DNA from: a virus
Reading direction: 5' to 3' (one strand)
Virus record (IMG/VR): IMGVR_UViG_3300030390_000428
Location: 401-29,415 of that record
Length of the DNA stretch: 29,015 bases
Shown: positions 2,104 to 12,933 of the stretch, piece by piece
How the letters are laid out: every line of letters begins with the position of its first letter
How positions within the stretch are numbered: position 1 is the stretch's first letter
Notes under the pieces: generated by a model
The model's input: the letters and a program-made list of their open reading frames with translations, nothing else
What the model was told of the DNA's origin: nothing
Databases searched by the model: none
Position numbers and translations under genes: made by a program

Positions 2104-2481
2104 CAAATGCAAGTATTATTGCAATACTCTATGTGCGGATAGAGAAAAGATAGTCTAACACAGTCTTATAGTGTCTTGTAAAATTCAATCCTTTCTTTTT
2201 TCGCGCTTTAGTTATCGGGCTAGAGGCTGATGAATCCCTTAAATAAAACATCAGAGCGAAGTTGACCCTCTTGACATAGCCCCAAAAGCAGATCGGTTTC
2301 TGCTGATGGATAGATTAGATATTCGATACGATAACGAATTAACCGCGAAGTCGCTTTGCCCTTTGATCTAAAATTTAACTTTTTGTTGTTAAAGGGTGAA
2401 ACGTGTCTTTGAATATATATTTGAATACACATTTAATCACATAATCAGGCGAGGCTTGTCCGAGCCATAGGAGATACAAAA
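2104..2481 (+). promoter_or_regulatory. Non-coding control region with several dyads
   Basis: About 380 bases carry no convincing gene on either strand. Visible elements are a 17-bp dyad AGTATT-5-AATACT (2112-2128); an adjoining hairpin CTCTAT-6-ATAGAG (2127-2144); CTGATG (2227-2232) against CATCAG (2249-2254); a hairpin AGCAGA/TCTGCT around 2288-2305; and a TTAAC/GTTAA pair around 2375-2392. The region separates the XRE operon from the replication and recombination operon. It could hold operators for the XRE protein, an origin, or a small RNA; the sequence alone cannot decide. Confidence 0.5.
2409..2437 (+). promoter_or_regulatory. Candidate promoter for the replication operon
   Basis: TTGAAT (2409-2414), a 17-base spacer and TTTAAT (2432-2437) make a moderate sigma70-like promoter about 45 bases before the first gene of the operon. 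An imperfect variant of the motif found below the other two early promoters (ACATTTAATCA, 2429-2439) overlaps it. Confidence 0.4.
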
Positions 2482-2703
2482 ATGACACAGATATCAAGAG
2501 TTCTACAGTACTTAGAAGATGGAAACAAACTAACCTGCCTAAATGCTTTTAATGAGCTTGGCATTACTAGGGTAGCCGCTAGAATCTTTGAACTTAAAAA
2601 GCTAGGGCATCCAATCCAGAAGAAGACGATTACAGTTACCAACCGATACGATGAGAAATGCAGTGTCGCTGAATACTATATGGGTGATAACAATGTTGCT
2701 TAA
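2482..2703 (+). CDS. Small helix-turn-helix protein (HTH_39-like)
   Basis: This 73-aa protein matches the layout of the phage helix-turn-helix family often called HTH_39. An initial helix (ISRVLQYLEDG) is followed by LTCLNAFNELGITRVAARI as the turn and recognition helix, then a short wing (ELKKLGHPI) with TITV strands. Such proteins bind DNA and are usually found in phage early operons. A ribosome site AGGAG lies 8-12 bases before the ATG. Its last 11 bases overlap the next gene. It leads the operon behind the control region, so it could be an autoregulator or a replication accessory protein. Confidence 0.75.
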   Translation: MTQISRVLQYLEDGNKLTCLNAFNELGITRVAARIFELKKLGHPIQKKTITVTNRYDEKCSVAEYYMGDNNVA

Positions 2704-3061
2704 TAACGGGAACACTTACGAGGCAGATCAGGCAGACATTATCCAGTGGGAAAAGACCTATCCCGCGATCAATGTTTACCAAGAACTGAATGCAATGGAG
2801 TCGTGGCTTGATGCTAATCCTACGCGCAGGAAAACACCTAAAGGAATCAAGAGGTTTATTAATTCTTGGTTGAGCAGAGCGCAAGATCGTGGCGGCTCAC
2901 CGCAGGTTAAATCAAAAACCCACAGCATCAGGAACAGGAACATTGAAGACAGCCTAGCAGATGTGTCTTGGATTGCTAACGTAGAAGCAAAGAACAGAGC
3001 CATCAATCATTTTATGGGTAAGTATGGCTTTTACTGGGATGGGGAGAGAAAAAATGGGTAG
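2693..3061 (+). CDS. Replication-protein-like domain (phage replisome-organiser C-terminal type)
   Basis: The 122-aa product holds a pattern that recurs in phage replication initiation proteins and related Gram-negative phage genes: W...YPAINVYQELNAM, then WLDANPTRRKT, then GIKRFINSWLSRAQDRGG (about residues 19-65). In larger homologues this segment follows a DNA-binding domain; here the protein is only this segment plus a basic tail, so the DNA-binding half may be supplied by the HTH protein encoded just upstream. The ATG at 2693 is preferred over an in-frame ATG at 2651 because it sits at the end of the HTH gene with an 11-base overlap. The replication role is inferred from family memory. 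Confidence 0.6.
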   Translation: MLLNNGNTYEADQADIIQWEKTYPAINVYQELNAMESWLDANPTRRKTPKGIKRFINSWLSRAQDRGGSPQVKSKTHSIRNRNIEDSLADVSWIANVEAKNRAINHFMGKYGFYWDGERKNG

Positions 3062-3305
3062 TACAAAGAAAGTTTTATATAAAGGCAAGCACCCTGATTT
3101 AGTTAATGGTAAATCATACGGGTATGAAGATTACGCTAGGGTTGCAGGTGTTGGCTATAAGAGTCTCTATTCGAGGCTCTACGGAAAAAATGTCGTAACT
3201 GATATTGATCTTAGACCAATTAGAACGCCTGTTAATATTGGAAAGAGTAAACCTAAATGGGATGGTAACGACTTATCTCAAAAGTGGCTTAGTCGGTCTT
3301 TATGA
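3054..3305 (+). CDS. Unknown small basic protein
   Basis: The 83-aa product is basic. It contains a possible helix-turn-helix-like stretch, YEDYARVAGVGYKSLYSRLYG, at about residues 23-43, where a short helix, a glycine turn and a second helix can be imagined. I do not recognise the family. The ATG at 3054 is chosen because GGGGAGAG precedes it and it overlaps the previous gene by 8 bases. The end overlaps the NinB gene through an ATGA. By context it belongs to the replication and recombination operon and may be a DNA-binding accessory. Confidence 0.65.
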   Translation: MGSTKKVLYKGKHPDLVNGKSYGYEDYARVAGVGYKSLYSRLYGKNVVTDIDLRPIRTPVNIGKSKPKWDGNDLSQKWLSRSL

Positions 3306-3760
3306 CTGAGGGGGCATTTGTGAAGTTTAACAACAAAGATGAAGTAAATAAGAAGGTGAAGTTCCTAATTGAGGATATGCTCAACTGGGATTTCACCACC
3401 CCCCTTGCAGTTAAGTTAGAGCCATACCAGAACCCAAGAAGCCTGAACCAGAATGCTTTGTTACATATGTGGTGCAGAGAGATCGTAAAAGGCATGAAAA
3501 AGAAAGGTTTTGAGGTTTCAGAAGGTGACCCAGTAGAGGCATGGAAGCTCTGGCTAAAGCGCAGGTTCTTAGGCACAGATGATTTCAGGATAAGCAACAC
3601 CAAGATCAGCGGTCAGGTAAAACCCAGTAGCCGACTGGGAAAGGGCGATATGGTGCATTTTCTAGATCAGTGCTATCATTGGGCAAGTGAGCAGGGGATA
3701 AAACTAACCATACCGCGAGAAAGCGAATATGCGGAGTTAAAAAACCAACAGGAGCAATAG
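3302..3760 (+). CDS. ninB: NinB-like recombination protein (lambda Orf family)
   Basis: The 152-aa length and motifs fit the NinB/Orf family: the RSLNQNALLHMWCREI stretch near residues 47-62 (compare the RSL.QN.. core of lambda Orf) and the C-terminal pattern KGDMVHFLDQCYHWASEQGI, which covers the helix that precedes the family's end. Lambda Orf is a dimeric recombination mediator that can stand in for RecFOR by helping to load annealing or RecA proteins on SSB-coated DNA. That fits with the DUF1071 and SSB genes upstream and NinG downstream. The start uses ATGA overlap with the previous stop. Confidence 0.85.
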   Translation: MTEGAFVKFNNKDEVNKKVKFLIEDMLNWDFTTPLAVKLEPYQNPRSLNQNALLHMWCREIVKGMKKKGFEVSEGDPVEAWKLWLKRRFLGTDDFRISNTKISGQVKPSSRLGKGDMVHFLDQCYHWASEQGIKLTIPRESEYAELKNQQEQ

Positions 3761-3763
3761 GGA

Positions 3764-4945
3764 ATGGATAAGATTGACCCAAGAACACTGTTAGCGTTAG
3801 ACATACCAAAAACCGATAGACAAATTGAATACCTAAAAGCCGCAATAGAATACGGCTCAAACTCTAAAGCCGCTAAGGAGCTAGGGATTAATCGCAGGTC
3901 AATCGACCGCAGTATTCAACTGGTAGAGCGCAAAGCCGCCTCCGTAGGTGTAGCACCACACCGAAACCTAACACGCCAAACCGCAGAGGGATTTGAAGCC
4001 AAACGAATCTCAACAGCATACAAAGAAGACGGCTCAGTTGCCTTGCAATGGGTTATCCAAGAACCCCACAAACGCGATATGCGGGCGAAGATCGAAGCCC
4101 TACTGGATGGGTTGGTTGATGATATAACAGGGCTTAAAAAGCCATCTAAGCCGCCTAAAGAGGTAGATGAAGACTATTGCGCCATGTATCTGATAGGCGA
4201 CCATCATTTCGGGATGCTTGCGGACTCAGATACTAAGCTAGATGACGATGATTGGGATGTGAAGATTGCCTCTAAGATTCTAGTTAACGCGACTGATCGA
4301 CTAGCCAAGAGGGTCGGAAACGCGCATACAGGTGTTTTAGTTAACGTGGGTGATTTCTTTCACGCTGATAGCAGTGCCAACACCACCACAGCAGGAACGC
4401 CAGTGGACGTTGATACACGCATTGGAAAGACGTTTAAACTAGCAGGTCGGTTGTTCCAGATTCTTATTGATAAGATGCTAGAGACCCATCAGGAAGTGGT
4501 CGTAATTAATGTTCGCGGCAACCATGATTCTGATATGGCTTGCCACCTATCGAGTTGTTTAGAACTACTATACGACAGAGAGCCGCGAGTTAATGTGCTA
4601 AAAAACTACTCAAAGTTCCTGCACTGGGAATGGGAAAACAATCTTTTTGTCTACCATCATGGTGATAGAATAAAGCATGAGCAGATTCTGCAAGCGGTAA
4701 TAACCAACCTAGATGATGAATGGTCGCAGTGTAAGAACCGATATTGTCACTTAGGGCATATTCACCACCACATGAGCAGAGAAGTAGGCTCTATGCAATT
4801 CAGTCATTGGGGTAGCCTAACAGCTACCGATCAGTGGCACAGCGATTCAGGTTATGGTGCAGAGCGATCTATGACGGCGATCGTTTATCACAAGCAGTAT
4901 GGCGAAGATTCAAGAGTAAAAATTAACGTGGATGCAGTCAAATGA
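3764..4945 (+). CDS. Calcineurin-like metallophosphoesterase with N-terminal HTH
   Basis: The 393-aa protein has all five blocks of the Mre11/SbcD-type metallophosphoesterase fold: D146-x-H148, G196-D197, G252-N-H-D255, H298-H-G300 and G331-H-I-H334. These residues bind two metal ions and hydrolyse phosphoesters. The first 60 residues look like a separate helix-turn-helix (SKAAKELGINRRSIDRSIQ, residues 34-52), joined by a lysine/proline linker at about 125-135. Mre11-type enzymes act as DNA nucleases; this one would join recombination with NinB and NinG, though a nucleotide-damage or RNA role is not excluded. It starts 3 bases after ninB with AGGAG upstream. Confidence 0.85.
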   Translation: MDKIDPRTLLALDIPKTDRQIEYLKAAIEYGSNSKAAKELGINRRSIDRSIQLVERKAASVGVAPHRNLTRQTAEGFEAKRISTAYKEDGSVALQWVIQEPHKRDMRAKIEALLDGLVDDITGLKKPSKPPKEVDEDYCAMYLIGDHHFGMLADSDTKLDDDDWDVKIASKILVNATDRLAKRVGNAHTGVLVNVGDFFHADSSANTTTAGTPVDVDTRIGKTFKLAGRLFQILIDKMLETHQEVVVINVRGNHDSDMACHLSSCLELLYDREPRVNVLKNYSKFLHWEWENNLFVYHHGDRIKHEQILQAVITNLDDEWSQCKNRYCHLGHIHHHMSREVGSMQFSHWGSLTATDQWHSDSGYGAERSMTAIVYHKQYGEDSRVKINVDAVK

Positions 4946-5148
4946 GCAGAGTAATTAAATTCCCAGAGGGCGATGATGATGGAACTGATGACAACGATAT
5001 CAGAGTTACTAAAGAGTTCTGTAGTACTTGTGGTGGCGGGCTTGAGTTGTGGACTTCTAGCGATCTTGTGGCTTATGGTGTTTGTTCTTATTGTGATATG
5101 GGAGTTGGTTCACAGCCCATTATACTTGTTAAGGCTACTGAGCATTAA
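4942..5148 (+). CDS. Small zinc-ribbon-like protein
   Basis: This 68-aa protein has an acidic N-terminus and two cysteine pairs, C27-x-x-C30 and C48-x-x-C51, spaced as in a zinc ribbon. It overlaps the phosphoesterase stop by an ATGA and ends one base before NinG, so it is certainly part of this operon. No other motif is visible. A zinc ribbon of this size could bind DNA or a partner of the recombination machinery; the function is unknown. Confidence 0.7.
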   Translation: MSRVIKFPEGDDDGTDDNDIRVTKEFCSTCGGGLELWTSSDLVAYGVCSYCDMGVGSQPIILVKATEH

Positions 5149-5580
5149 ATGGCAAAGCGCAAAAAAGCAACAGTAGCCCAAGAGGTAGAGAAAGCCGCCA
5201 AGCTATTGCAAAGATACGTCAGGCTCAAAGCCTCAGACGATAACGGATACTGCCAGTGCGTAACCTGCGGCAAGGTAGATCACTATAAGGCGATGCAAGG
5301 CGGTCACTTCTACAGCAGACGGCACACAGTTTTTAAGCTGTTCGAGGAGAACATTCACCCCCAATGCCCTGCCTGTAATGTCTATGGTATGAAAACAACC
5401 AGAACGCAGGAAGCCTATCGCATATACATGGAAGATATGTACGGAGCTAGACGAGTCAGGGCGATGCAGAAGCTATCTTGGAGAGCATCACCCAAGTTTA
5501 ACCGCCAAGAAGTGATAGAATTTCAGAGGGAATTGAAGGAAAAAATCAAGGATGAAGAGTACAGAATAGGGGAATATTGA
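5149..5580 (+). CDS. ninG: NinG/Rap-like recombination endonuclease
   Basis: The 143-aa protein matches the NinG (Rap) family. A helical N-terminus is followed by C35-x-C37-x-x-C40 (YCQCVTCGK), MQGGHFYSRR (residues 49-58) and NIHPQCPACNVYG (residues 68-80, Cys73 and Cys76), then a C-terminal helical region. Lambda Rap is a structure-specific endonuclease acting on Holliday junctions and D-loops in RecBCD/Red-linked recombination. Length is a little shorter than lambda NinG (about 200 aa), lacking part of the N-terminal extension. The gene starts immediately after the zinc-ribbon gene and ends the operon; a strong promoter follows. Confidence 0.85.
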   Translation: MAKRKKATVAQEVEKAAKLLQRYVRLKASDDNGYCQCVTCGKVDHYKAMQGGHFYSRRHTVFKLFEENIHPQCPACNVYGMKTTRTQEAYRIYMEDMYGARRVRAMQKLSWRASPKFNRQEVIEFQRELKEKIKDEEYRIGEY

Positions 5581-5599
5581 AATAAAGTTATGCAAAGTG

Positions 5600-5628
5600 T
5601 TGACAATGTATATTAATAGGTTTACAGT
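5600..5628 (+). promoter_or_regulatory. Strong sigma70-like promoter P2 with overlapping operator dyad
   Basis: A perfect -35 TTGACA (5600-5605), a 17-base spacer and a -10 TACAGT (5623-5628) precede the accessory-gene cluster. A 17-bp dyad with 7 of 8 paired positions (AGGTTTACAGTACACCT, 5618-5634) covers the -10, so a bound repressor would block polymerase. The motif TACATTAATCAA (5634-5645) starts five bases below the -10, as at P1. Confidence 0.75.
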
Positions 5629-5664
5629 ACACCTACATTAATCAAATACATAAGGAATACACAC

Positions 5665-5913
5665 ATGAAATTTAACCGAATTGAAGCGACTGAACTTAAA
5701 AATGGTAAATACAGATTTGAGGCTGTTGAGTCTAATGGAGAAAAGCACCTTATCAGAAAAGCAGGCAATCTAACAAAAGGTGTGGTGCAGTGGAATAGTG
5801 GTACTTTTAGCTTTAACATTGCCGAAGCACACGATTCTAGAGCGGTTGGTCGTGTAGCAAGAATCTATACTCCAGAAAACGGAATTGACGTTATTGCTTA
5901 CAAAGCAAAATAA
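5665..5913 (+). CDS. Unknown small beta-rich early protein
   Basis: The 82-aa product has alternating hydrophobic and charged residues suggesting a small beta barrel or sheet (KYRFEAVES, HLIRKAG, GVVQWNSGTFSFNI, ARIYTPENGIDVIAY). There is no cysteine, signal peptide or catalytic motif. It is the first gene behind the strong promoter P2, with an AAGGAA ribosome site, so it is likely made in quantity early in infection. Early, highly expressed small proteins often inhibit host functions or defences, but nothing in the sequence proves that here. Confidence 0.75.
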   Translation: MKFNRIEATELKNGKYRFEAVESNGEKHLIRKAGNLTKGVVQWNSGTFSFNIAEAHDSRAVGRVARIYTPENGIDVIAYKAK

Positions 5914-5920
5914 TCTAATC

Positions 5921-5936
5921 GCCCCCGAAAGGGGGC
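5921..5936 (+). other. GC hairpin with GAAA tetraloop between accessory genes
   Basis: GCCCCC (5921-5926) pairs with GGGGGC (5931-5936) around a stable GAAA loop. No T-run follows, so it is not an efficient intrinsic terminator. It resembles the hairpin at 1800 in build and position (just after a gene stop inside an operon), suggesting an mRNA stabiliser or partial attenuator. Confidence 0.55.
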
Positions 5937-5958
5937 AACTAATCAAGGGGAAATACAG

Positions 5959-6144
5959 ATGAATAATAGAATTTTGGAAGATGCACTTCACATCTACAAG
6001 CACTGTATATCAGTGCGTGATGCTAAAAAGACAATGCGTTCTAATTTTTGGCTTAATCAGTCAGTTAATTATAAAAAAGCTGTATGGAGCAAATTGATCG
6101 ATTTATGCGAAGCAAATGGATATTTTGAAGAGGTGCAAAAATGA
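5959..6144 (+). CDS. Unknown small helical protein
   Basis: This 61-aa protein is predicted to be helical and has no motif I recognise. It has AAGGGG upstream at good spacing and ends with an ATGA overlap to the next small gene. It lies in the accessory cluster behind P2. Confidence 0.6.
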   Translation: MNNRILEDALHIYKHCISVRDAKKTMRSNFWLNQSVNYKKAVWSKLIDLCEANGYFEEVQK

Positions 6145-6314
6145 ACGATTTATTTCAGTTATCGTACATGGATATTAAGCGCAGAGATAGCCAAGCTACA
6201 GACAAGCGCGACAGTATCAAGGGCATTCTAGCGGCTGTTACTTTGTTTGCTATGTATGCAATCGTATCAACTATGGACTACCAAGACTGCTTGCGAGGTG
6301 CTACATCATGTTAA
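6141..6314 (+). CDS. Small single-span membrane protein (57 aa)
   Basis: The 57-codon frame starts at an ATGA overlap with the previous stop and ends inside the next gene (7-base overlap), so it fits the operon precisely. Residues about 28-45 (GILAAVTLFAMYAIVSTM) form one hydrophobic segment after a charged N-terminus, and two cysteines lie in the short tail. The positive charges just before the span suggest the N-terminus stays in the cytoplasm. The function is unknown; small phage inner-membrane proteins often act in exclusion or host takeover. Confidence 0.6.
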   Translation: MNDLFQLSYMDIKRRDSQATDKRDSIKGILAAVTLFAMYAIVSTMDYQDCLRGATSC

Positions 6315-6772
6315 TCTATGAGGACTTTGTATCTAAGCACTACGATGCTCTGTATAAGGAAGATTCTAGACTGTCTGACCTACCTGATGCCGCACTAGAT
6401 GAAGCTGTTTACATCTGGCTCAACAGTCACAAAACTTGGTTCGAGGACATATACCCTGCAACATTTAGCAGAGGCGTAGGCAAGATAGCCACAGAAATGC
6501 TGTTTGGCAAAGCACCATCAGCAAGCAAGATAGTTTCTAACTTGTTCATTGCTATGGCAGAAGACTCACCTGATGAGTACGATAAGGATGACCGATGGTG
6601 GTCAGAGGCGTTAGAAACGCATCTAGATAGCATTGTTAACTTAGGTAACTTTGCTGACGACCTTAGAGATAGAATCTACCTGTACCTAGAACACACAATA
6701 GAAGAAGCAATCTTTGATGAGTTCGCAAAGCAGAAAGGCGAAAACGATAGGGAGCATGGAATCTATGACTGA
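6308..6772 (+). CDS. Unknown acidic accessory protein
   Basis: The 154-aa protein is acidic, rich in tryptophan and aromatic residues, and mainly helical by eye. No family is recognised. It lacks a signal peptide or membrane span. It overlaps both neighbours by a few bases, so it is in the P2 accessory operon. A low isoelectric point and early position would suit a DNA-mimic or inhibitor role, but this is speculation. Confidence 0.7.
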   Translation: MLIYEDFVSKHYDALYKEDSRLSDLPDAALDEAVYIWLNSHKTWFEDIYPATFSRGVGKIATEMLFGKAPSASKIVSNLFIAMAEDSPDEYDKDDRWWSEALETHLDSIVNLGNFADDLRDRIYLYLEHTIEEAIFDEFAKQKGENDREHGIYD

Positions 6773-6929
6773 TTTAGCGAGAAAATGGCAAGAACTTAGA
6801 GACGAATACCCACCTCTAGAGATACCGCACGACAAAGAGGAGCGCACACAGTTCGAAAACTGGGTTGCAGAAATGGGATTTGATGGGATAATTGGAATTA
6901 ATAGGGTGAAGCAAGATGACAAAAACTAA
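6765..6929 (+). CDS. Unknown small acidic protein (54 aa)
   Basis: The protein of 54 residues is predicted to be helical at the N-terminus (LARKWQELRDEYPPLEIPHD) and has no known motif. The ATG at 6765 is preferred over upstream in-frame ATGs (6714, 6717, 6756) because AGGGAG lies at correct spacing and the overlap with the previous gene is only 8 bases. Confidence 0.55.
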   Translation: MTDLARKWQELRDEYPPLEIPHDKEERTQFENWVAEMGFDGIIGINRVKQDDKN

Positions 6930-7104
6930 AAAAGCAATAAAAGAGGTAAACCAGATGGCAGATAAAGCGATATTAAAAGCGCAGTTTGATGCGTATAAAG
7001 CTAAAGCAAAAGCATGGTTAGCTGTCGAAGTATACGGACATAGCAGGGGAAAGATTCTACTAGCGGTATTTGTAATGGTTGCCGCAGTAATTACAGCTTC
7101 ATAG
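6916..7104 (+). CDS. Small C-tail-anchored membrane protein
   Basis: The 62-aa product has a lysine-rich helical N-terminal part and one C-terminal hydrophobic segment (ILLAVFVMVAAVITAS, residues 47-62), which suggests a tail-anchored inner-membrane protein. An alternative start at 6955 (with AGAGG upstream) would give 49 residues. It overlaps the previous gene by 14 bases and is the last member of the P2 cluster. The function is unknown. Confidence 0.55.
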   Translation: MTKTKKAIKEVNQMADKAILKAQFDAYKAKAKAWLAVEVYGHSRGKILLAVFVMVAAVITAS

Positions 7105-7270
7105 TGTAACCCCTAGTAGCGGGCATCCTCCAAAAGCCTGATTAGCCAGAGTGGTTCACTGGTGCTACGAAACGAACCATTCACTCAGGTAATAACCCCC
7201 ATAGCTAAAAAGCATTAGATTGCGTTCTAAGCCCTCTATATAATCCCGCCTTAACAACCTGAGCCTCCCT
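7105..7270 (+). other. Non-coding foldable element ahead of the packaging genes
   Basis: No gene is visible in these 166 bases. The stretch 7137-7189 can fold: CCTGA (7137-7141) pairs with TCAGG (7185-7189) and TGGTTC (7152-7157) with GAACCA (7174-7179), leaving a 16-base loop. The position, just upstream of terminase, is where cos or pac sites commonly lie, but no consensus for such a site can be recognised. Confidence 0.4.
7239..7244 (+). promoter_or_regulatory. Possible promoter -10 box (TATAAT)
   Basis: A perfect TATAAT lies 27 bases before a 33-codon frame. The best -35 is weak (TTAGAT at 7215-7220, 18-base spacer), so this is only a candidate. Confidence 0.3.
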
Positions 7271-7372
7271 ATGAAAACCATCCTTATACTGGCGATAATC
7301 GCCCTAGTATTGATTGCCTATGACGATTTAGGCGGTAGATATATGAGAAAAGACGAACACCCTGAAAATTAA
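7271..7372 (+). CDS. Putative 33-aa membrane peptide
   Basis: The frame encodes a hydrophobic N-terminal segment (TILILAIIALVLIAY, residues 3-17) and a charged tail. No good ribosome site precedes the ATG, but TATAAT lies about 30 bases upstream. It could be a small membrane peptide or a chance frame; its hydrophobicity pattern is protein-like. Confidence 0.35.
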   Translation: MKTILILAIIALVLIAYDDLGGRYMRKDEHPEN

Positions 7373-7376
7373 TTGC

Positions 7377-7406
7377 TTGACTGTAAAGCATTAGTTATAG
7401 TATATA
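7377..7406 (+). promoter_or_regulatory. Promoter P3 for packaging and structural genes
   Basis: TTGACT (7377-7382) with TATATA (7401-7406) at 18 bases, or TTGCTT (7373-7378) with TATAGT (7396-7401) at 17, gives a sigma70-like promoter. A dyad ACTGTAA (7380-7386) against TTATAGT (7395-7401), 6 of 7 pairs, overlaps it and could be an operator. It lies 35 bases before the first gene of the late block. Confidence 0.6.
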
Positions 7407-7440
7407 GGCGATAGATAGAACCAATAATGAGGTAACTACT

Positions 7441-7695
7441 ATGATGAGCCTAGAACTAACTAACAAGATCAACACTTGTAAAGAGAACGGATGGACTGAT
7501 TTATTGTCTAAGCTAGACGAGATCACCCAGAGCCTAATCGAGAACCCTAGTGCAGGGCATCAGATCAAAACAGCATTAGTCTTTTGGAAAGATGCGGTTG
7601 AATGTCGCGCCAAAGGACTACCCCCACAAGAGCATGATATAATAATCAAGAACCCTAAGATGAATGTTCGAGAAACATTCGGAGCTGATATGTAA
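7441..7695 (+). CDS. Unknown small protein ahead of terminase
   Basis: The 84-aa protein is helical, with no recognised domain. A second ATG follows the first immediately; GAGGTAA lies at good spacing. It ends one base before the terminase small subunit gene and leads the late operon behind P3. A role in packaging or in late regulation can be guessed from place alone. Confidence 0.65.
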   Translation: MMSLELTNKINTCKENGWTDLLSKLDEITQSLIENPSAGHQIKTALVFWKDAVECRAKGLPPQEHDIIIKNPKMNVRETFGADM

Positions 7696-9248: not shown

Positions 9249-10759
9249 TGGAAAACAGCGTAATTGAAAACACACACCCAATCTATGAAGACTACAAGTT
9301 CAGATGGTCTTTCTATCTCAGAAGCTACATGGGTGGAGAAGATTATAAAGAGGGTGGCTACCTAACAAGCTACATCTCAGAAGACAAAGACGAATATGCT
9401 AGACGTTTAGACCTTACCCCGATGGACAACCACTGCAAGAACATTGTCCACATCTACTCTAGTTTCCTATGGCGCGTACCGCCAACCAGAGCATTCAACA
9501 GCCTAGCCAACAACAGCGCACTACAGCCGTTTCTAAAAGATTCTGATCTTGATGGTCGGTCTTTTAATGCGTTCATGAGACAAGCGCAGGTTTGGTCTAG
9601 CGTATATGGGCACGTTTGGTTAATGATTGATAAGCCTCAGTCTAATGCATCTACAAGAGCAGAAGAACTAGACCAAGAGATTCGCCCCTATATGACTTTG
9701 ATCACACCAGAGAACGTGTTTGACTGGAAGTATGAGCGCACTTCTAGCGGTCGGCATAAGCTAGTCTATCTAAAGGTCAGAGAGTCAGTAGATCGCATTA
9801 GCAACACCGAGACAGAGGTTTACTACAGAGTATGGCGTGAAGATACTATCGAGACTTGGCGCGCTACTAACAACGAAGAAGAGCACCTAGAGACTATCGA
9901 CAATACACTAGGCAAGATACCTGCTGTTTTCCTACCTGCTAACAGATCGCCTTTACGCGGTATTGGTACAAGTGATATCGCTGATGTGTCGTATATGCAA
10001 CGAGCTATCTATCAGGAACTATCAGAAGTAGAACAGTTGATTCGTATCAGTAACCACCCAACACTGGTTAAGACGTTTGAGACTGATGCTAGTGCAGGGG
10101 CAGGTGCAGTAATTAACTTACCTGATGATATGGATGGCAACCTAAAGCCATACCAGATGCAACCATCAGGGGCTAACCTAGATGCTGTTATGAAGTCTAT
10201 TAAAGATAAGGTTGAGTCTATCAACCGAATGGCTCACATGGGTGCAGTGCGTGGCACTGAAGCTATGACACAGTCAGGCGTAGCAATGCAGACAGAGTTC
10301 CAGATGCTGAATGCTAAACTGGCAGAAAAGGCAGACATACTAGAACTAGCAGAAGAGCAGATATTCGACCTGTTTTGTCAGTGGCAACAAGTACCCAATG
10401 ACGTAGAGGTGTTCTATCCTGATGCGTTTGATCTTAGAGACTACGACAAAGAGCTTGTATTCCTACAGCAGATGCGTGCCACAGGCGTTAAGTCCATGAC
10501 CCTAGCACAAGAGATCGACAAGAAGATCGCTGATCTAGTGCTTGATGACGATATGCTAGCGAAGGCGCATAATGAGATTGAGATCACCACACAGACTGTT
10601 GGCGACTTCTCAGAAAAGACCCAGATATATAGCTATCACATTGATGCAGGTGTTGTTACAGCTAACGAGGTCAGAGAAAAGATTGGTCTTGAGGATGTGG
10701 CAGGTGGCGATACTCTTATCGAGCCGCGTGATGATGGCGGTAGTACAGAGCAAGTCTAA
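9248..10759 (+). CDS. Portal protein
   Basis: The 503-aa product sits between terminase and the MuF head protein. It has portal-like features: an N-terminal FRWSFYLRSYMGG region, a central beta part (ETEVYYRVWREDTIETW), the QRAIYQELSEVEQLIRISNHPTLV segment, and a long helix followed by acidic C-terminal sequence. Portals form the 12-fold vertex through which DNA enters and leaves. The ATG at 9248 is chosen over a GTG at 9239 because of the TGATG junction with terL. Family is identified by order and pattern, so the subfamily is uncertain. Confidence 0.85.
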   Translation: MENSVIENTHPIYEDYKFRWSFYLRSYMGGEDYKEGGYLTSYISEDKDEYARRLDLTPMDNHCKNIVHIYSSFLWRVPPTRAFNSLANNSALQPFLKDSDLDGRSFNAFMRQAQVWSSVYGHVWLMIDKPQSNASTRAEELDQEIRPYMTLITPENVFDWKYERTSSGRHKLVYLKVRESVDRISNTETEVYYRVWREDTIETWRATNNEEEHLETIDNTLGKIPAVFLPANRSPLRGIGTSDIADVSYMQRAIYQELSEVEQLIRISNHPTLVKTFETDASAGAGAVINLPDDMDGNLKPYQMQPSGANLDAVMKSIKDKVESINRMAHMGAVRGTEAMTQSGVAMQTEFQMLNAKLAEKADILELAEEQIFDLFCQWQQVPNDVEVFYPDAFDLRDYDKELVFLQQMRATGVKSMTLAQEIDKKIADLVLDDDMLAKAHNEIEITTQTVGDFSEKTQIYSYHIDAGVVTANEVREKIGLEDVAGGDTLIEPRDDGGSTEQV

Positions 10760-12690
10760 TGGCGGCAGATACTGATCACTTTGATGCTTTAGACAGCCTA
10801 GCTGATACGCATCAGAAGAAACTAGCCGAGTCTTTAGTAACTCTTGAAAACAGAATTGCTGATCTGGTAGCAACTGCGCCCCTACAAGATGGCAAGCTGT
10901 TTGATTTAGAGTGGGCAGTTAATGCGCGTAATGAGTTAAGACAAGCAATCGATGAAGACTACCTGACAGAAGTAGACAGCATTATCAGGGACTACGACCA
11001 AGTTGCAGTCGATGCGGCAACTATGCTTGGCGAATATGGCGACATTGTACAGCTAGACCAAGATGTAGTCGGTCAGCTACAACAGATGACGTTTCAGGGG
11101 TTTGAAGACTTAGGCGCAGAGCATTTAGATATAATCTCGAAGCAGGTTTATGAAAGCACGCTAACAGGCGCAACCTTTGCCAACAGTGTTAACGCGGTCA
11201 GAGAAGTGGTCGGCAAGGATATGGCAAGGCACGCTAGTCAGCAGGTGCATGATTCGTTGATGCAGTTTGATCGCGCAGTAAACACCAAGATAGCCCTCGA
11301 CTCAGGTGCAGAAAAGTTTAAGTATCGCGGCTCTGATGACAGTAAGACCAGAACTTTTTGCAGAAAGCACGTTGATAAGGTCTACACAATAGATGAGATT
11401 AACGAGATTTGGCAAGGTGAATGGGCAGGTAAAAGCAGTTCTAATGCCTTTGCTACAGCAGGGGGATATAACTGTAGGCATAGATTTAGACCAGTATTTG
11501 ATGAGGTTGCTGAGGAGGTAGTTGAGGAGGTTGCACCACCCCCAGAGCCAGAGCCAGTAACAGACTTGCAGACTAAGCCTATCAAGAAGCTATCTAAAGC
11601 GGCGGCAGTTAAGTCGGCAGAGAAAAAGCTTAAGTATAAGCCAGAGCAATGGAAGACAGTTAGTGAGGGTAGTAGAGACTTTTACAGCTATCCTGTAGAC
11701 AGTGATGGCACTCCTATGTTGCGCTTTAGGGGAAAGGGAATATCACAGTACTCAAACTATACAACAAGAGTCAATTCGTTCAATCTACAGACTGGCAAGG
11801 TTACAGGGACAACATTCTCGGCAGAAACGCTTACCCTAGTGGATAACGCGCTAGACATAACCGCAGACCTGTCAAAGCAATACAAGATACCGCAGATTCG
11901 AGCAATCACACCAACAGGCGATAAGAGTGCGGCAATGTCTATGGGCGATATGAATCTTTCTATTAACGCATCATACTGGAAGCCTAGAGCGGCAACTGCG
12001 TTCGTGGATGAAAGCGAGATAAGAAAGAGCATTGCCAAAGAGACTGCAAAGCTTAGAGCTTTAGATGATGATATGCAGTTGCTAGCAGATAAGTACGCAG
12101 AGACTAAAGCAAAGTATTTTGAAACTAGAGACTACGCGCTTTTAGAGGAATACAACGGCTACGCTGACGACTACAACAAGAAGCGCAGTGCGAAAATGCG
12201 AGTCAATAGAAGCATTAGTCGAATGGAGCAGTCTATAAGACCGCAGACAGCTAGCACTTGGCGAGTCGGTGATGACCTAAAAGACAGACCAGAACTAGCT
12301 TCAAGATATTTTGACGACCCTGTCGATAAGTTCAACAATACTGTTGTGCATGAATACGGACACACACTGCACCAAGAATACAACAGAATCGGTACAGAGC
12401 GCGGCAAGGGGCTAATGTCAGAGCCACCTGTAGAAAAGTATCTGGCACATTTATTTTATGACAAGAAAAACAAAAAAAAGCTAAACCCTAACAACGTGTA
12501 TCCTACAGGCTACAGTGAATATAACCATCACGAATGGTTCGCTGAAAGTTTTAGCCTGTACAACATGGGCAGAAAAGACCTAGTAGACCCAAAGCTAGTT
12601 AACCTGCTAGACGAAATGAAGAAAAATAAAGGGCATCTTGATGTATTTGATGGCTTTGATTTCAAACTAGGAGAAGTTATAGATGAGTAA
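10759..12690 (+). CDS. MuF-type head morphogenesis protein fused to a zinc metallopeptidase
   Basis: This 643-aa protein has three parts. Residues about 120-246 carry the MuF head-morphogenesis pattern ending GGYNCRHRFRPV. A Glu/Pro hinge follows (about 249-268). The rest is an added domain with HEYGH at 531-535 and HHEWFAESF at 590-598, a gluzincin layout in which His531 and His535 plus Glu592 or Glu596 would bind zinc and Glu532 is catalytic. Normal MuF proteins end soon after the CRH motif. MuF C-terminal fusions to toxin or peptidase domains are known in phages and are carried in the capsid; ejection with the DNA or use as a maturation protease are both possible. TAATG joins it to the portal gene. 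Confidence 0.85.
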   Translation: MAADTDHFDALDSLADTHQKKLAESLVTLENRIADLVATAPLQDGKLFDLEWAVNARNELRQAIDEDYLTEVDSIIRDYDQVAVDAATMLGEYGDIVQLDQDVVGQLQQMTFQGFEDLGAEHLDIISKQVYESTLTGATFANSVNAVREVVGKDMARHASQQVHDSLMQFDRAVNTKIALDSGAEKFKYRGSDDSKTRTFCRKHVDKVYTIDEINEIWQGEWAGKSSSNAFATAGGYNCRHRFRPVFDEVAEEVVEEVAPPPEPEPVTDLQTKPIKKLSKAAAVKSAEKKLKYKPEQWKTVSEGSRDFYSYPVDSDGTPMLRFRGKGISQYSNYTTRVNSFNLQTGKVTGTTFSAETLTLVDNALDITADLSKQYKIPQIRAITPTGDKSAAMSMGDMNLSINASYWKPRAATAFVDESEIRKSIAKETAKLRALDDDMQLLADKYAETKAKYFETRDYALLEEYNGYADDYNKKRSAKMRVNRSISRMEQSIRPQTASTWRVGDDLKDRPELASRYFDDPVDKFNNTVVHEYGHTLHQEYNRIGTERGKGLMSEPPVEKYLAHLFYDKKNKKKLNPNNVYPTGYSEYNHHEWFAESFSLYNMGRKDLVDPKLVNLLDEMKKNKGHLDVFDGFDFKLGEVIDE

Positions 12691-12859
12691 ATATTTAGAT
12701 ATGGGGCGAAAGCTAATAAAGGAAGACCCTCTGCCAGATGATGTGGTGGAGAGGTTAGATCGGTTGTACGACCTTATAGACCCAGACGAGCTAGATGAGT
12801 TTCTGTTTCTGTATGAGGCTGTGCATTTAACTGTAAACTTGCTTGACGAGGATGAATGA
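12683..12859 (+). CDS. Small acidic protein overlapping the MuF-peptidase gene
   Basis: The 58-aa frame starts 8 bases before the end of the MuF-peptidase gene, with AGGAG about 10 bases upstream, and its stop overlaps the next micro-gene. It is strongly acidic (about a third Asp/Glu) and probably two or three helices. Codon use looks like its neighbours. A small acidic protein coupled to a peptidase domain might be an inhibitor or immunity factor or a chaperone for packaging it, but no family is recognised. Confidence 0.65.
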   Translation: MSKYLDMGRKLIKEDPLPDDVVERLDRLYDLIDPDELDEFLFLYEAVHLTVNLLDEDE

Positions 12860-12933
12860 TGCCAAAAGGCGCAGGAACATACGGAAGCAAGGTCGGAAGA
12901 CCTAAGAAAAAGAAGCGCAAGGTTAAGAAATAG
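12859..12933 (+). CDS. Ultra-basic 24-aa micro-protein (MPKGxGTYG type)
   Basis: The frame begins MPKGAGTYGSKVGRPK and ends in a run of lysines and arginines (11 of 24 residues basic). It shares a TGATG junction with the preceding gene and lies just before the scaffold gene. From memory, similar MPKG-GTYG-GRPKK micro-proteins occur near capsid genes of other phages, which supports it being real; this was not checked. Electrostatic binding to packaged DNA or to acidic partners is plausible. Confidence 0.6.
   Translation: MPKGAGTYGSKVGRPKKKKRKVKK

Follow-up and report, generated by a model that had tools for sequence, protein, structure and literature searches.

A phage MuF head protein joined to a predicted lethal-factor-like zinc peptidase and followed by a small partner gene

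Here we describe a viral gene that joins the core of a MuF head protein to a C-terminal domain, hereafter the tip, which is probably a zinc metallopeptidase of the lethal factor kind and is followed by a short overlapping partner gene. The gene lies in a 29,015-nucleotide stretch (positions 401 to 29,415 of the 29,415-base IMG/VR virus record IMGVR_UViG_3300030390_000428), which we call the window. Sequence comparison and structural models show a fusion whose tip is peptidase-like in fold and residues, and a partner gene that is linked to the tip and exchanged with it as a cassette. From these we favor, somewhat more than we doubt, a reading in which the peptidase would be carried in the capsid for use in the infected cell and restrained by its partner. 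An initial annotation of the window had proposed the MuF–metallopeptidase fusion; the overlapping partner gene, the cassette exchange, another HExxH domain carried by the same core, and related Vibrio genes beside DarA_N are additions to it. The features on which the analysis turns are as follows, in window coordinates.

10759..11496, + strand: MuF core, residues 1-246, of a head protein gene directly 3′ of the portal gene (translation; PF04233, E 5.8e-5; core-only homologs)
11497..11568, + strand: acidic, proline-containing hinge, residues about 247-270, the cassette junction (translation; comparison with relatives)
11569..12687, + strand: tip, predicted ATLF-like zinc metallopeptidase domain, residues 271-643, 373 amino acids (AlphaFold2 model; ATLF profile; PDB profile matches; fold of relative L101)
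12010..12237, + strand: predicted two-helix coiled-coil insertion, residues about 418-493 (helices 148-186 and 189-223 of the tip model; none in the L101 model)
12349..12363, + strand: HEYGH, residues 531-535, with probable zinc ligands H531 and H535 and probable general base E532 (translation, alignment)
12511..12513, + strand: invariant Y585, probable transition-state tyrosine (invariant in 41 tips)
12532..12546, + strand: EWFAE, residues 592-596, with probable third zinc ligand E592; E596 is invariant too (translation, alignment)
12683..12859, + strand: partner gene, 58 amino acids, with conserved Glu45 (codon 12815-12817; open reading frame conservation; dN/dS; alignment)
12856..12933, + strand: Lys-rich mini-gene, 25 amino acids, 3′ of the partner gene (open reading frame comparison with core-only loci)

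A MuF core carries a peptidase-like tip

The open reading frame (ORF) of 643 amino acids begins with an ATG at 10759, and its stop codon ends at 12690; the portal gene lies directly 5′ and shares its last base with the ORF start. The core ends with GGYNCRHRFRPV, residues 235-246, and matches the MuF family PF04233 weakly (E 5.8e-5 in the whole-record search, 0.033 with hmmscan, both below the Pfam cut-off), a cut-off that all four tip-bearing relatives scanned exceed. In close relatives the protein consists of the MuF core, about 246-252 amino acids long, without a peptidase, and it is at the hinge, which is long, acidic and proline-rich, that these core-only relatives, together with a locus bearing a different tip (L005), diverge from the window. 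The translation contains every element that the initial annotation had read from it, namely the end of the MuF core, the acidic-proline hinge, HEYGH at residues 531-535, and HHEWFAESF at residues 590-598.

Conservation of the motif argues against a chance HExxH, which we had considered and ruled out: all 81 tip sequences read retain it, and HExxH was absent from the search patterns. These 81 comprise 79 of the 80 viral loci kept (from 99 found), one contig (L031) ending before the motif, plus two genome loci. The downstream E[WF]FAE occurs in 77 of the 81, a count biased because this stretch served as a search pattern; the exceptions (L061, L062, L064 and L065, with EWFCE in L061) form one family. 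Among 41 non-redundant tips, drawn from 82 sequences including the window, H531, E532, H535, H538, Y585, E592, F594 and E596 are invariant (whole-protein numbering), and between the window and L029 the tip shows a nonsynonymous rate (dN) of 0.070 against a synonymous rate (dS) of 0.734. Ligand conservation in relatives, proposed at the outset as a check on the metallopeptidase assignment, thus supports it. Y585 stands seven residues before E592, which we take to be the spacing of the catalytic Tyr ahead of the Glu ligand in PPEP-1 and lethal factor; PDB titles include Y178 and E143 variants of PPEP-1.

Profile searches point to the same enzymes. The Pfam ATLF family (PF07737) matches residues 527-604 (E 7.7e-4) with 19.7 bits against a cut-off of 27.4, and we therefore call the tip a distant relative rather than a member; the same profile matches 39 of the 41 non-redundant tips at E ≤ 0.1, the best at 6.7e-6. 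Compared with the PDB, the 41-tip profile had matches to the catalytic domain of lethal factor at E 4.7e-5, to a zinc metallohydrolase lipoprotein at 6.9e-5, and to Pro-Pro endopeptidases with values starting at 0.013. Searches with single sequences reached less far: phmmer with the 643-residue protein found no zincin in the PDB (best E 0.18), and a single-protein scan for the tip found three close loci only. Together, the tip is probably a zinc peptidase of the ATLF / Pro-Pro-endopeptidase kind, with H531, H535 and E592 as its predicted ligands.

The predicted structure agrees. AlphaFold2 modeled the window tip with a predicted local distance difference test score (pLDDT) of 89.5 and a predicted template modeling score (pTM) of 0.88. 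The model comprises a helix, three strands and two further helices that bear HExxH (251-270 in tip numbering) and the Glu (320-332), with a coiled-coil hairpin (148-223) between the strands and the HExxH helix. A fold search with this model yielded no zincin among the matches listed, because the coiled-coil insertion filled the match lists; we therefore modeled a compact relative without it, L101 (pLDDT 89.4, pTM 0.89). L101 aligned best with the catalytic domain of lethal factor (Z 10.8, 174 residues at 3.8 Å), followed by PPEP-1 (3.2 Å over 141 residues, 20% identity) at Z 7.7, in a comparison where Z under 8 is common by chance; Foldseek alone returned no PDB match for L101 at E ≤ 0.001. 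The zincin comparison that the initial annotation had called for, to see whether the histidines and glutamates come together, supports its assignment only indirectly, by way of L101, and the tip is predicted to have an ATLF/M34-like fold with conserved ligand residues. Among the structural neighbors in a viral structure library are entries titled Lethal factor and Minor capsid protein; databases may therefore already contain comparable fusions that no paper describes. With the ATLF peptidases lethal factor and PPEP-1/PPEP-3 the tip has in common HExxH, the downstream Tyr and Glu and, via L101, the catalytic-domain fold; unlike them, it scores below the Pfam cut-off, has a coiled-coil insertion, and is attached to a phage head protein.

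A small partner gene accompanies the tip

The partner gene (12683-12859) starts eight nucleotides before the end of the peptidase gene. Judged by its substitution rates between the window and L029 (dN 0.088, dS 0.645), it is under purifying selection. Leaving out L037, which stops short of this position, an ORF follows here in 39 of 40 non-redundant tip genes, with starts from 20 nucleotides before to 4 nucleotides after the end of the tip stop codon; 37 of the products have 57-75 amino acids, and those of L039 and L110 have 482 and 249. The one tip gene without it, L109, lies in an Endoriftia draft in which the frames are broken. No partner ORF was found in the 20 core-only loci first checked (17 from IMG/VR, several near-identical and not de-duplicated, and three pelagiphages).

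In an alignment of 37 partners, at least 90% have Glu as residue 45, and of 44 tip-linked partners counted 42 have it, with Asp in L052 and Thr in L110, a Vibrio locus without MuF. Pfam and PHROGs gave weak matches only for the partners scanned (best E 0.0089). Aegir gp16 (E 1.3e-4) and HTVC026P gp31 (E 1.2e-19) were both matched by a partner profile trained without these two. At 35% identity, 32 of 39 partners fall in one cluster, and the 39 are likely to be one family. Once MuF-core distances are accounted for, tip and partner distances still correlate (partial r 0.50, 0 of 2,000 permutations, 19 loci), in a permutation that ignores relatedness.

Tip and partner are exchanged as a cassette

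The C-terminal domain differs between near-identical MuF cores, both in single loci and in a core-family scan. L005 is close to the window in its core (96%), scaffold (97%), portal (88%) and terminase (97% across the 79 residues available), and its tip is not similar: it carries a different HExxH domain, tip B, and an unrelated small gene. L006, with a core 91% identical, has neither tip nor partner. Conversely, L002 retains the tip (87%) and partner (83%) with a portal of 72%, a core of 53%, a scaffold of 79% and a capsid protein of 50% identity.

The core-family scan took the best 80 of at least 556 relatives, at least four of them repeated contigs (L113, L114, L165 and L175); one locus was incomplete and 79 could be classified, L011 and L046 from separate comparisons. 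Six carry the window-type tip (tip A), nine tip B and 64 no tip. Because the query included cores that bear a tip, these shares do not estimate natural frequencies. A third kind of tip did not appear among these best 80. The small gene behind each of the six A tips belongs to the partner family, and that behind all nine B tips, as in L005, to another (FGxxPxxxG ... PYxE); profile comparison found the two small-gene families unrelated. Tip B, now found on the same MuF core in ten loci (L005, L147, L151, L152, L163, L168, L169, L177, L187 and L189), has the motif HEYGHHxD ... SDIxDAxxxG ... GHGxxYY ... FANL, matches PHROG 4728 (head morphogenesis) in all ten, and aligns with tip A over 23 columns only, around HExGH. 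On these comparisons, tip and partner behave like a single cassette that is swapped between cores. The suggestion of the initial annotation that the domain brings the phage a real benefit needs qualifying, given the 64 of 79 classifiable loci that do without any tip.

These relatives also bear on a role in assembly, in which the tip would cleave the scaffold, the capsid protein or MuF itself. A head protease is present in many phages, and PHROG 595, named head maturation protease, matches the protein (E 1.3e-8); its best stretch, residues 124-427, ends before the catalytic motif, and we rejected the function implied by the name. Core-only relatives whose terminase, portal, scaffold and capsid proteins match those of the window have no tip, and in four of them (L006, L009, L014 and L018) the tip was found nowhere in the whole record. 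Tip B, moreover, weakly resembles minor head protein gp4 of Listeria phage B054 (28%, E 3e-5), a phage in which the maturation protease is annotated as a separate gene. Because tip-less relatives exist, we consider head processing quite unlikely. Of the two roles first proposed for the peptidase, we accordingly favor action on a host protein over processing of head proteins. B054 gp5 was also considered as a partner; its position fits, and neither partner profile matches it.

Around the cassette lie genes for terminase, portal, scaffold, major head, tape measure and tail fiber proteins. A Lys-rich peptide of 24-25 amino acids (GTYGSKVGRPKKKKRK) is encoded directly 3′ of MuF in 17 of 17 core-only loci (L006-L022); the corresponding mini-gene of the window sits after the partner gene, and some other core-only loci have a different basic gene, of 40-49 amino acids, at this position. 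Elsewhere in the window, 3764-4945 encodes an exonuclease (PHROG 704) with weak Pfam matches to calcineurin-like and HTH domains.

The tip occurs in other settings

When four tips served as tblastn queries against named phages, tip A turned up only in HTVC026P, a cultured SAR11 phage, and in Aegir and Kolga. In the siphophage Aegir, which PMC8163748 describes as a partial genome of the Kolga population, tip A and partner accompany a MuF protein whose core the window core did not match in tblastn. Plasmids searched with the L047 tip gave no match, and among 369 genomes of the class to which Vibrio sonorensis belongs, the tip was matched only in the genome of that Vibrio.

The contig of that Vibrio (L110) has a tip gene without MuF (3464-4312). 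A DarA_N gene (2422-3474) overlaps the tip gene, which in turn overlaps a gene (4309-5058) encoding a partner-like N-terminus joined to an InPase domain. This arrangement suggests a second delivery setting for the tip. In phage P1, DarA associates with the head and acts against restriction. A study of polyvalent phage proteins (PMC5512222) has DarA among its queries. By the description in that study, which sorts metallopeptidases (MPTases) into 12 clades, the window protein resembles polyvalent proteins such as P1 DarA and DdrB in having a zincin within a phage protein presumed to be injected, and in L110 a DarA_N gene and an InPase domain accompany the tip; polyvalent proteins are large and multi-domain, whereas the window protein is a two-domain MuF fusion.

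For the zincin domains of P1 DdrB and N4 vRNAP, self-processing has been proposed (Iyer et al. 2017, PMC5512222). Applied here, the tip would have no host target; it would cleave MuF or its own chain, either within the head or once injected. The length and the acidic, proline-rich character of the hinge are consistent with this; against it, no other cargo domain to be released was recognised, and the dedicated partner gene and the exchange between two HExxH domains would be left unexplained. We give this account very little weight.

Partner paralogs and a collagen-like fusion

Members of the partner family that we call A2 (80-93 amino acids) form one related group; the 12 compared are either tip-free or second copies, the latter in L039, L041-L044 and L046. 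Position 45 is acidic in none of these 12, compared with Glu in 42 of 44 tip-linked partners. A2 proteins could be orphan remnants or structural proteins. Those beside tip-less MuF genes (L176, L178, L182, L184, L185 and L188) have a charged tail and no Glu45. In L039, positions 4840-7544, between MuF and scaffold, encode a 482-residue protein joining a partner domain to a collagen-like chain, a 246-residue fiber-like protein, and a second partner paralog.

Such loci invite a structural account, in which tip and partner would together make a platform for docking at the head or neck. The partner would then be a small virion protein, at times lengthened by a collagen-like chain, and the peptidase would act on the cell surface or the virion. 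The collagen-like fusion of the partner in L039-L041 favors it, as do the A2 paralogs without a tip and, by comparison, the collagen-like capsid accessory protein gp12 of SPP1 (PMC6316719). Set against these are the restriction of the fusion to one set of near-identical contigs, the difference at position 45 just described, and the location of the SPP1 MuF protein gp7 in the procapsid interior. We regard this account as unlikely.

Discussion

In the reading that we favor, for whose catalysis, location, ejection, inhibition and target we infer the following, the MuF core would dock at the portal inside the capsid, and the tip would be a catalytically complete ATLF/M34-like zinc endopeptidase. 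The small, helical cognate partner would bind the tip and hold it inactive in the cell that makes the phage, and probably in the particle as well; late synthesis of the enzyme in the cytoplasm would call for such a restraint. When a new cell is infected, either the whole MuF protein or just the tip would exit with the DNA, and the peptidase would act on a host protein, most simply one that hinders early infection; a host defense protein as target is a guess drawn from the DarA_N neighbor in Vibrio.

That the MuF–tip protein travels inside the capsid and leaves with the DNA is argued by analogy with SPP1 gp7, which in the available part of PMC6316719 is portal-bound, in the procapsid interior, present in few copies and dispensable for assembly, although of the virions that lack it only about 25% are infectious. 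Gp7 is described there as the carrier type, with no peptidase tip mentioned in that part; the window protein has one.

MuF polymorphic toxins offer a further parallel. The excerpts available of two papers (Jamet et al. 2017, PMC5576092; Apk2, PMC12226406) report a small downstream ORF behind 89.4% of 191 MuF toxins, a metallopeptidase domain in 20% of them, and an immunity protein, IapK, that occludes the active site of its MuF toxin. Like these toxins, the window combines a MuF N-terminus after the portal gene with an exchangeable C-terminal enzyme and a small downstream gene. Unlike them, the phages here are marine, and no tyrosine integrase (PF00589) was found in 27 records (21 tip-bearing and 6 core-only), which may be fragments and do not include the whole Kolga record; a serine recombinase (PF00239) occurs in 2 of 14 records. 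The same excerpts describe MuF toxins as exclusive to temperate phages, mostly of Firmicutes, with no known toxin domain in virulent phages, the toxin–temperate association in that phage set having p = 0.055.

Several observations weigh against the favored reading. If MuF toxins belong to temperate phages, the missing tyrosine integrases fit poorly with the lysogeny account of them, and immunity of a lysogen would meet no obvious need here; the lifestyle could be either. That all partners are homologous is less than certain: in a leave-cluster-out test only 4 of 39 partners (L057, L059, L077 and L100) reached E < 0.01, with L047 and L093 at 0.019, L110 at 2.2 and L052 without a match, and only L057 was recovered when the 32-member cluster was held out, leaving seven for training. 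The partner-like N-terminus of L110, which this test did not recover, has Thr in place of Glu45. The family is not only tip-linked, since 6 of the 63 core-only loci in the wider scan have an A2 paralog next to a MuF gene without a tip, and two B tips are followed by one. Finally, the fusion of a partner to a collagen-like chain in the near-identical contigs L039-L041 looks like a sign of a virion structural role.

A more specific form of capsid delivery would have Glu45 of the partner plug the zinc site in trans. The partner would stay on through assembly and packaging, passage through the portal would strip it off, and the enzyme would be on only inside the new host, there removing a defense protein. 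We offer this ejection-activated scheme as a rather improbable elaboration.

MuF–metallopeptidase fusions are already known in general; this tip family, its partner and the phage group add a new form to them. Available passages of the literature on MuF toxins and metallopeptidases, lethal-factor-like capsid proteins and SPP1 gp7 do not describe it, and searches on pelagiphage HTVC026P and on ejected metalloproteases gave nothing on the 643-residue protein among the matches listed.

MuF effectors have been described as a temperate-phage trait and explained by lysogeny. A cassette of this kind, exchanged among marine phages that yielded no tyrosine integrase, HTVC026P and Aegir included, calls for some other reason to carry an enzyme together with its restraint, or for a hidden temperate life. 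Were the ejection-activated scheme true, integrase-less phages would use "immunity" to store a live protease in the particle and not to protect a lysogen. With one enzyme domain, one protein of about 60 amino acids and named isolates, the system is short and testable, and it bears on what phages deliver with their DNA.

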